Origin: Pyrinomonadaceae bacterium
GTDB taxonomy: Bacteria > Acidobacteriota > Blastocatellia > Pyrinomonadales > Pyrinomonadaceae
Reading direction: 5' to 3'
Assembly (NCBI GenBank): GCA_036277115.1
Contig: DASUNM010000023.1
Coordinates: forward strand, 124,001-188,000
Length of the DNA stretch: 64,000 bases
Positions 18,419-21,683 of this stretch are shown here, in pieces. The notes under the pieces are model-generated. The model saw only the letters and a list, made by a program, of their open reading frames with translations. It was not told the DNA's origin and did no database searches. Position 1 is the first letter of the stretch. Each line of letters opens with the position of its first letter. The position numbers and the translations under genes are program-made.

Positions 18419-18814
18419 GTAGAGGTAAATCGGTCGCTAAAGCTGAACCGCCAGAATAAGTCGTCGCGCCTAAGCGGTCAATCGCAAGTTGTTTGACTGG
18501 AGCGCAAGCGTCCTCGCTTGCTGTGTTGTTTAGTCAGCATGCAAGCGGAACGCTTGCGCCCCAGTCTACGCAACAACATATTGCGGCCCGGGCCCGGCGA
18601 CCCACTGGAAACTGGGCCAGAATAAATGTCTTTACTTGGTGGCCCAAGTGGTCTCATAATTTCGGCCCCTCGTGAATCATTTTGAGGGCTGGGTCGATGG
18701 CCCAGAGGAATGCGGGCGTCAGGCCCGCGTTTGTGTCTAGTGGCCCAGACTTTTGTCTGTGAGCGCTTCACGAATCACAGAGTGAAGTCTGGGCGACCCA
18801 ACGGAGGATCCTCG
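18419..18814. other. Gene-free divergent region with two repeat types
   Basis: A 396-base region between divergent kinase and Ku genes. It holds an inverted repeat at 18497-18564 (CTGGAGCGCAAGCG...CGCTTGCGCCCCAG) and a second at about 18741-18797 (GCCCAGACTTTTGTCTGTG... AGTGAAGTCTGGGC). Between them is a GC-rich stretch with GGCCCAGAGG-like segments. No reading frame here looks real. A GGAGG at 18803-18807 serves Ku. Confidence 0.65.
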
Positions 18815-19684
18815 ATGCGTTCGATTTGGAAAGGTCACATACGATTTCTGCTCGTCGCGATTCCGATTCGCGTCTACAACGCGCTCGAAGCGTCTGAGCG
18901 AATTCAGTTCAATCAACTGCACCGTGACGATTTTGGTCCCATCGGTTACGACAAGCGCTGCAAGAAGTGCGGCGAGGTTGTCACGAACGATCAGATCACA
19001 AAGGGTTATCAGTACGAACCCGATCGTTACGCGATCGTCGAGCCGGAAGAGATCGCTAAGATCAAGATTAAGACGACGCGCGCTGTGGACATTCTCGGCT
19101 TTGTCGAGAGTGCCGAAGTCGCGCCGATGTTCTTTGACTCGCCTTATTACATTGGGCCCGACGGCCCGGTCGCGGAAAAGCCCTTCGCCCTACTGCGTCA
19201 GGTTTTGAAAGACACGGGCAAGATCGGCCTGGCAAAAGTTGTCCTTCGCGATCGCGAAGACCTCGTGGCGGTCTTTCCGCACGATGACGGCATCGTGTTG
19301 CAGAAACTGCGGTATCCAGCCGAAGTACGCAAGGTTGAAGACGTGCCGGAGATCGATGCGGCGCCGAAACTCGACAAGAAAGAGTTGGCGCTGGCGACCA
19401 GCCTGGTCGAACAGATGATCACAACCTTCGCTGACATCGACACCGTCGATCATTATCACGAAGCGCTGCGCAAGCTGATCGATTCGAAGATCAAAGGCAA
19501 GAAGGTTACGGAGTTTGAGAAGTACGAAGAGCCGCCCAGCATGGACATCATGACAGCGCTCAAGAAGAGCCTGCAGGCATCATCGCGCAAGCCCATGGTC
19601 AAAGCTGCGCCGGTCGCTTCGAAGAAGGCGCTTACTCTCGTCAAATCAAAACCCGCGACGGCGAAGAAACGGAAGGTTGGGTAG
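18815..19684 (+). CDS. ku: Ku protein, non-homologous end joining
   Basis: Bacterial Ku forms a homodimeric ring on DNA ends and recruits ligase D. The 289 residues show the canonical start SIWKGHIRFLLVAIPIRVYN, the CKKCG motif of the core, and a lysine/alanine-rich C-terminal tail (about residues 255-289) typical of DNA-binding Ku extensions. The start is ATG 18815 with GGAGG eight bases upstream. LigD is not in the window. The convergent neighbour is a degenerate PolX homologue, which also belongs to the DNA repair set. Confidence 0.95.
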   Translation: MRSIWKGHIRFLLVAIPIRVYNALEASERIQFNQLHRDDFGPIGYDKRCKKCGEVVTNDQITKGYQYEPDRYAIVEPEEIAKIKIKTTRAVDILGFVESAEVAPMFFDSPYYIGPDGPVAEKPFALLRQVLKDTGKIGLAKVVLRDREDLVAVFPHDDGIVLQKLRYPAEVRKVEDVPEIDAAPKLDKKELALATSLVEQMITTFADIDTVDHYHEALRKLIDSKIKGKKVTEFEKYEEPPSMDIMTALKKSLQASSRKPMVKAAPVASKKALTLVKSKPATAKKRKVG

Positions 19685-19814: not shown

Positions 19815-21683
19815 TCACACCGGCCGCACGGCTTTTTGAAACGCTTTCACTCCCAAAGCGTTCAGCACTTCCCCTTTTCGAACCCAGCCGCGGCGCGCGA
19901 TGCCAACGCCGTACTTCACGTTATGCAGCGCGTTCATTGAATGCGCGTCAACGGAAATTACGAACTTGATTTTGCGTTTGCGAGCTTCGCGCACCCAGCG
20001 CGGCTCCATGTCCAGCCTGTACGGATCACCGTTGATCTCAACCGCCGCGCGTGATTCGGCAATCACATCGAGAATCCTTTCGACATCGCAATCAAAGGGC
20101 GGACGTCGCTGAATCAGACGCCCGAGCGCGTGTCCCCAAATCTTGAACACCGGCTGGCGCATGGCCGTGACCACCCGCTTCGTCATCTGTTCAGAGTTCA
20201 TCTTGTAACGCGAATGGATGCTCGCGACGATTACGTCGAACTGCTCCAAAATCCAATCCGGATAATCGAGCGATCCGTCCTGAAGAATGTCTGACTCAGT
20301 GCCTTTCAAAATCTTAATCTTCGTTTGCTCCTGAACGCGGTCGATTTCTTCCCACTGTTGCTGCAGGCGATCGATCTTCACGCCACCGGCGTAGAACGCG
20401 GTCGGTGAATGATCTGTGATCGTTATGTACTTCATGCCCAGCGCTTCGGCGGTGCCCACCATCTGTTCGACGCTGTGCTTACCGTCGGAATACATCGTAT
20501 GACAGTGCACCATCCCCCGAATGTCTTCGGTCGTGATCAAATCTTCAGGCAGCTTGCCTTTCAGTGCCGCTTCGATCTCGCCCGCGTCTTCGCGCATTTC
20601 GGGTGGCACGTATTGCAGTCCCAGTCGTTTATAGATCTCGCTTTCTGAGTGTGGAAGAGCCTTAAACGTCGATTGAGACACTCGGGCACTTTCCCCTCTC
20701 CGCACGCGGAGAGGGGTTAGGGGAGAGGATGGCAAGCGTGCCGAACCCCGCCCCAACCCCTCCCCGCTTGCGGGGAGGGGCAAAGCGAGCTTTTTCTTCG
20801 CGGCAATGGGCTGAAGCTTGTTTAAGTGCGCTTCGGAACCGGTGGCGCGCCACAGTGTGATCGCGAACTCCTCGGGCTTAACCGCGAAGAGCGTTGCCTT
20901 ATAGCCTTCGCTCAGCACCACGGAGCAATATTCTTTGGTTTTTGATTCAGTTCGAATGACGAGGGGGAAACGCAGAAAATGTTCAACGACCGTCTGAGGT
21001 TTCTTTGCCGACGCGACGATCACAATCTGCGAGACCGTCTCTTGCCAGCGTCGCGTTGCGCCTGCCGCTTCAGCCTTCAACACACCGCGCGCCGTCGCGA
21101 GATATTCGAGAATCCGCTCGCTCAAGCGCCAGGCGTGATGAATGTGAATGAACTGCTCGCGCTTTTCATGACCGGCGATTGCATCAAGAATCGCAGCTTC
21201 AGTCTTCGCGCCAAAGCCTTTGACATCGCGCACCTTGCCGGCCTCGCACGCGGCGCGTAACTCTTCGACGCTGGAAATCCCCAGCGCTTCCTGAAGACGT
21301 CCGACTTTCTGAACGGACAAACCGGGTATGTGCGACAGCTCGATGATGCCGGCCGGGAGTTGACCGCGCAGCTCGTTCAGCATCGAAGACTCGCCGGTCG
21401 TATAAAGCTGATCGATTTGCCTCGCCAGTGCATGGCCGATTCCCTTCACGAAAGTCAGACGGTTCTGCTTGATCAGCTTGCCGACGTCTTCGCCTAGTTC
21501 GGCCACCGCGCGCGCGCCTGCTTTATACGCGCGAGCTTTGAAGTACTGCCCGCCTTTCAGTTCGAGCAATGCGCCGATCTCCTGCAGCGCGGCCGCGATC
21601 GCAAATTTGTCTTTCAGTGGTTTAGCCAACGTTTTTAGTTGTACTCGTTGAAATGTGAACGATGGACCCCGTCTATATGGCAT
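19815..21683 (-). CDS. PolX-like protein with lost polymerase site and intact PHP domain
   Basis: A 622-residue homologue of family X DNA polymerase. Helix-hairpin-helix segments (VKGIGHALARQI; IPGLSVQKVGRL; VKGFGAKTEAAI) cover residues 1-170. The palm motif normally GSxRRxxETxGDIDIL reads GATRRWQETVSQIVIV (208-223), and the third acidic site VDL reads ATL (263-265). All three catalytic aspartates are therefore missing. The PHP phosphoesterase domain (about 390-620) keeps its metal ligands: HCHTMYSDG, TDHS, GTESD, SIHS, GHALGR and DAH. A repeat-encoded peptide interrupts residues about 300-337. The start is uncertain: ATG 21683 or TTG 21629 (LAKPLKDKF). Likely a nuclease or phosphoesterase, not a polymerase. 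Confidence 0.88.
   Translation of the reverse strand: MPYRRGPSFTFQRVQLKTLAKPLKDKFAIAAALQEIGALLELKGGQYFKARAYKAGARAVAELGEDVGKLIKQNRLTFVKGIGHALARQIDQLYTTGESSMLNELRGQLPAGIIELSHIPGLSVQKVGRLQEALGISSVEELRAACEAGKVRDVKGFGAKTEAAILDAIAGHEKREQFIHIHHAWRLSERILEYLATARGVLKAEAAGATRRWQETVSQIVIVASAKKPQTVVEHFLRFPLVIRTESKTKEYCSVVLSEGYKATLFAVKPEEFAITLWRATGSEAHLNKLQPIAAKKKLALPLPASGEGLGRGSARLPSSPLTPLRVRRGESARVSQSTFKALPHSESEIYKRLGLQYVPPEMREDAGEIEAALKGKLPEDLITTEDIRGMVHCHTMYSDGKHSVEQMVGTAEALGMKYITITDHSPTAFYAGGVKIDRLQQQWEEIDRVQEQTKIKILKGTESDILQDGSLDYPDWILEQFDVIVASIHSRYKMNSEQMTKRVVTAMRQPVFKIWGHALGRLIQRRPPFDCDVERILDVIAESRAAVEINGDPYRLDMEPRWVREARKRKIKFVISVDAHSMNALHNVKYGVGIARRGWVRKGEVLNALGVKAFQKAVRPV
20691..20781. repeat. 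Dispersed repeat, family C, inserted in frame in the PolX-like gene
   Basis: Arms CCCCTCTCCGCACGCGGAGAGGGG and CCCCTCCCCGCTTGCGGGGAGGGG flank a spacer. A sister copy sits between genes at 35049-35141. Here it is translated as LPLPASGEGLGRGS...LTPLRVRRGES without a frameshift. Confidence 0.9.

Follow-up and report, generated by a model that had tools for sequence, protein, structure and literature searches.

In the 64,000-nucleotide stretch of Pyrinomonadaceae DNA analysed here (positions 124,001 to 188,000 of contig DASUNM010000023.1, assembly GCA_036277115.1; hereafter the window), which belongs to the 4.85 Mb genome of a soil bacterium, a minus-strand open reading frame spanning exactly 19815–21683 encodes a 622-residue homologue of the family X DNA polymerase PolX that has lost its polymerase metal site and kept the metal site of its PHP domain. 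The protein combines an 8-kDa helix-hairpin-helix (HhH) domain, a thumb, a palm and a PHP domain in a single chain, as recognized by Pfam (HHH_8, HHH_5, DNA_pol_B_thumb and PHP, with HHH_8 and HHH_5 above their cut-offs), by the NCBIfam PolX model NF006375 (430 bits, barely above its equivalog cut-off of 426) and by structural matches to the PolX proteins of Thermus thermophilus (3au6) and Deinococcus radiodurans (2w9m). These two are the only solved full-length relatives (E ~1e-92 and 7e-79, respectively), and identity to the Thermus protein is ~32–33%. Along the minus strand, the 8-kDa domain occupies residues 28–98 (21390–21602; PF14716, E 4.5e-12), the tandem HhH units of the thumb residues 115–169 (21177–21341; PF14520, E 1.9e-7), the palm, as bounded by alignment to T. 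thermophilus PolX, approximately residues 191–273 (20865–21113), and the PHP domain positions 19818–20522 (PF02811, E 1.5e-13). The first ~24 residues are unconserved among orthologues and unstructured in the predicted model, so that translation may actually begin at a later residue.

Loss of the polymerase site and retention of the PHP site

The register of the palm triad was taken from a 61-sequence MAFFT alignment and from phmmer alignment to 3b0y and 3au2, with Thermus residues numbered as in the 3au2 chain. In both, the catalytic aspartates D198, D200 and D243 fall on Gln219, Val221 and Thr264 of the window protein: Q219-I-V221 (21021–21029, minus strand) replaces D198-L-D200, and T264 (20892–20894, minus strand) replaces D243. 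The landmarks beside the triad (G208-x-x-R211-R212 ... E215-T) are retained, so that the register is unambiguous, and the three acidic palm residues that mark canonical PolX are absent. Other acidic residues were considered as a substitute triad and rejected, E259 being the sole fully conserved new acid nearby and standing alone. Compared with the published description of the group (PMC9226535), the site for the deoxynucleoside triphosphate (dNTP; residues 279–287, 20823–20849, minus strand) is likewise eroded: the Thermus steric gate Y258 has become R279, L259 has become A280, K263 has become E284, and S266, a position occupied by N in most canonical sequences, has become L287, with the GS turn retained. 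R245 and R270, which are basic in 100% of canonical sequences, are F266 and Q291. The PHP domain, by contrast with the palm, has its full set of nine ligands (H393, H395, H425, E463, H490, H518, E549, D579 and H581). A sequence-only reading of this DNA had proposed that the motif GDID reads SQIV and VDL reads ATL, and that every PHP metal-binding motif is kept; both points are borne out, and the Thermus alignment, which could have placed the aspartates elsewhere, leaves the register at Q219/V221/T264.

The loss of the triad is not a sequencing accident, because it is likewise missing from 12 orthologues encoded in other genomes (55–72% identical in the alignment); 11 of these belong to the same family of acidobacteria, and the remaining one (G067) to a different family within its class. 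Their triads vary (QVT, QIK, QVQ, EVT, GVT, TRS, TES and TRF, with one glutamate each in the EVT and TES members), and the PHP ligands are invariant in all 13 sequences. Full-length PolX is patchy within the family, occurring in 12 of the 60 genomes searched (G000–G059, where G000 is the window genome). An in-frame TAA codon interrupts the N-terminal half of one orthologue (L019, on G006:C181), due either to assembly error or to decay.

An AlphaFold2 model built from a 26-sequence alignment (mean predicted local distance difference test score, pLDDT, 87; predicted template modelling score 0.73) has well-predicted palm strands, with pLDDT mostly 88–97 across the palm and values below 50 only at residues 1–21 and 306–340; as modelled, the palm fold is maintained despite the loss of the triad. 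The model matches 3au6 (Z 46.5, root-mean-square deviation 6.9 over 542 residues) and 2w9m (Z 40.0, 2.1 over 393; Foldseek, VIA-align), and the large whole-chain deviation from other T. thermophilus entries most likely reflects a difference in how the domains are oriented. PHP proteins of the YcdX and histidinol-phosphatase type (1m65 and 2yxo; Z 27.4 and 22.9) share the PHP fold, but lack the 8-kDa, thumb, palm and fingers domains.

Proteins of this kind have been defined as noncanonical PolX, which make up 27.5% of prokaryotic PolX and are recognized by triad substitution, decay of the dNTP site and an intact PHP domain (Prostova et al., 2022; PMC9226535), a view at which a 2026 survey also arrives (PMC12926913). 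Judged by its sequence, the window protein has every testable feature of the group bar an optional deletion in the palm and fingers. Where one to three triad residues are replaced in the group, all three are replaced here; the dNTP-binding residues are degraded at L287, E284 and R279-A280, in a site that in the group has a hydrophobic N279 equivalent, has lost the basic D276 equivalent and the steric gate, and keeps the GS in 42% of members (PMC9226535); and the PHP motif HHHEHHEDH is complete. No large palm or fingers deletion, common in the group and present in its alphaproteobacterial short-palm members, was found relative to the Thermus palm; as the deletion is optional, its absence does not exclude membership. 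The likeness to D. radiodurans PolX (triad AEE) extends to the order of 8-kDa, thumb, palm, fingers and PHP domains, the lost triad, the PHP motif, the replaced dNTP residues (a hydrophobic N279 equivalent, E at the K263 equivalent) and the presence of genes for non-homologous end joining (NHEJ) in the genome. The window protein differs in having a triad with no acidic residue (QVT), an in-frame repeat in the linker and a directly convergent Ku gene. With canonical PolX (T. thermophilus 3au2/3au6 and Bacillus subtilis PolX) it shares the overall fold and the PHP metal site, but not D198/D200/D243, the steric gate, K263, the S/N266 equivalent, R245 or R270.

Function and the Ku neighbour

We consider it highly probable that the window protein is a noncanonical PolX with a decayed dNTP pocket and palm metal site, and that it works on DNA as a PHP-domain Mn2+-dependent 3′–5′ exonuclease or 3′-end-cleaning enzyme. 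The putative nuclease activity is argued from studied relatives: the noncanonical PolX proteins of D. radiodurans and D. gobiensis are devoid of polymerase activity and are robust Mn2+-dependent 3′–5′ exonucleases, and in the former the dependence on PHP was demonstrated by mutation (PMC9226535). The sequence-only reading, by which the protein could not be a polymerase by the known mechanism and might be a nuclease or phosphoesterase keeping its DNA-binding HhH units, is supported: the loss of triad and dNTP site speaks for the first claim, and the presence of HHH_8, HHH_5 and the PHP ligands is consistent with the second. What it missed is that this type of protein had already been described and biochemically tested in 2022.

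As also stated in that reading, polX converges with a Ku gene (18710–19684, plus strand; PF02735, E 4e-46), the two lying tail-to-tail with 130 bp between them. Ku adjoins polX in six of seven members of the genus, several of which share the order kinase–Ku–PolX–MscS–permease; in the genome G005 (L002), Ku is absent from the 3.2 kb examined downstream of polX. The NHEJ enzymes of the host genome are split: elsewhere it encodes two further Ku genes in tandem (G000:C21:7303–8769), a LigD_N phosphoesterase that stands alone, and a LigD Prim-Pol whose gene lies upstream of that for a LigD-type ligase, in addition to three other ATP-dependent ligases. Ku and LigD-type enzymes, the mark of an NHEJ-associated PolX, are thus encoded together with this protein, and noncanonical PolX is enriched together with NHEJ genes (PMC9226535). 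In this reading, DNA ends or gaps would be bound by the HhH units of the 8-kDa domain and thumb, the dead palm and fingers would act as a scaffold, and 3′ ends would be trimmed or cleaned at the PHP site, plausibly in Ku-dependent end joining, where LigD-type proteins would provide synthesis and ligation. By analogy with its relatives, 3′-end processing by the PHP domain in repair or end joining is the most likely function; judged from genomic context alone, the protein possibly acts in NHEJ.

Several points weigh against this interpretation. The biochemically tested members are two Deinococcus proteins, none is acidobacterial, and the window protein itself is known from sequence. Outside the genus, polX and Ku are on different contigs and not adjacent; even within it, convergent genes form no operon, so that their lying side by side is a weak indication that they work together. 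We also considered PolX as a stand-in for a missing LigD nuclease, a role that is not needed in a genome with a stand-alone LigD_N. The leading alternative is that the PHP domain serves mainly as a 3′-phosphatase or 3′-phosphodiesterase, or as an apurinic/apyrimidinic endonuclease, in base-excision repair and not as an end-joining exonuclease. The retained 8-kDa and HhH domains, suited to gapped DNA, would fit such a role, but the conserved adjacency of Ku within the genus argues against it, as does the report that D. radiodurans PolX is important after gamma-irradiation and not for base-excision repair (PMC9226535); we regard this alternative as unlikely, though still a serious one.

Origin of the clade and selection on its domains

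The 13 sequences group together in a single, fully supported clade. In a careful 43-row tree all canonical sequences fall on one side (support 94/95) and the clade falls among other noncanonical PolX; in a quick 84-row tree, at odds with this, three canonical sequences fall among the noncanonicals. Both trees include few sequences from Bacteroidota and Deinococcota. The clade may share its origin with the main cluster of Prostova and colleagues, comprising noncanonical PolX of Bacteroidota, Deinococcus and Alphaproteobacteria, with which the data are compatible, or may have lost the polymerase site independently. We think improbable the further-reaching reading in which the acidobacterial clade lost its polymerase site independently of the Bacteroidota and Deinococcus cluster and the dead palm was kept as a Ku-associated DNA-end scaffold that would position 3′ ends for the PHP nuclease, with newly fixed residues E259 (acidic in 13 of 13 clade members vs. 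6% of canonical PolX), K262 and K289.

Among the three closest pairs of sequences, the ratio of nonsynonymous to synonymous substitution rates (dN/dS) is ~0.03–0.06 in the PHP domain and 0.09–0.19 in the palm. In more distant pairs synonymous sites are near saturation, so that only dN was compared there; in all pairs examined, dN in PHP is ~3–9 times below that in the palm. Across the 13 sequences 117 of 235 PHP columns are invariant, and among the structured parts conservation is lowest in the palm and fingers. As a control, we compared the clade with canonical PolX at matched PHP identity (0.78–0.84). Mean palm identity was 0.46 in the clade vs. 0.70 in canonical PolX, fingers identity 0.44 vs. 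0.82 and thumb identity 0.56 vs. 0.65, whereas the 8-kDa domain stood at 0.64 vs. 0.60. Since at equal PHP divergence the palm and fingers evolve far faster than in canonical PolX and the 8-kDa domain does not, the relaxation is centred on the polymerase site. Purifying selection still acts on the palm, in keeping with a role in structure or in DNA binding.

This residual selection, together with the newly conserved E259, K262 and K289, might also be read as a palm with a different chemistry, or with a new metal site made from other acidic residues. However, E259 lies in a turn between predicted strands (252–257 and 262–268), no comparable set of newly conserved acidic residues surrounds it, and the palm and fingers are poorly conserved as noted; we think such a palm very improbable.

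Within the linker before the PHP domain, residues ~302–331 (20691–20780, minus strand) stem from the in-frame insertion of a near-palindromic repeat of ~90 bp, which is dispersed over about 40 separate sites in the host genome. The same repeat lies in frame in genes for an arginyl-tRNA synthetase (L011), an amidohydrolase-family protein (L008) and a DNA ligase (L074/L148). Its palindrome is imperfect, visible as BLAST matches on both strands; no inverted repeats of at least 15 nt were reported in the linker copy. The orthologues of the window protein lack the repeat, and it coincides with the low-confidence part of the model noted above. Palindromic elements of Rickettsia, which this repeat resembles in kind, also occur within coding genes. 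The lost polymerase site, this mobile repeat and the in-frame stop of the relative in G006 could suggest a decaying pseudogene, but we think this very improbable, as the frame is open over its full length, the PHP domain is under the constraint described above, and the repeat is in frame within a disordered segment.

Noncanonical PolX among acidobacteria

Noncanonical PolX was also observed in several acidobacterial families (L100, L111–L118), with triads NNV, RDR, ATE, AER, SDS, SDR, GER and QPV. Four other acidobacterial genomes pair a canonical with a noncanonical PolX, 10–13 kb apart (L101, L103, L104 and L108, with triads DEG, DET, DSD and DAV), the noncanonical members grouping with L099 and L102 in a clade of their own. 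Between the paired genes of L101 lie cell-wall, secretin and unrelated genes, with no NHEJ genes among those scanned. The window genome further encodes a stand-alone protein of ~180 residues with only the PolX-type 8-kDa HHH_8 and HHH_5 domains (L006; G000:C27:586564–587037), and similar proteins occur in many of the relatives searched, including genomes without PolX.

These findings extend a known but thinly sampled group: two acidobacterial members had been named in the main noncanonical cluster (PMC9226535), and we find that many acidobacterial families carry noncanonical PolX. They support the view that in many bacterial PolX proteins selection keeps PHP end processing and not DNA synthesis, and the comparison at equal PHP divergence places the relaxation in the palm and fingers. 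Because its Ku neighbour is conserved, the genus to which the window belongs offers a clean setting in which the role of such proteins in end joining may be tested.
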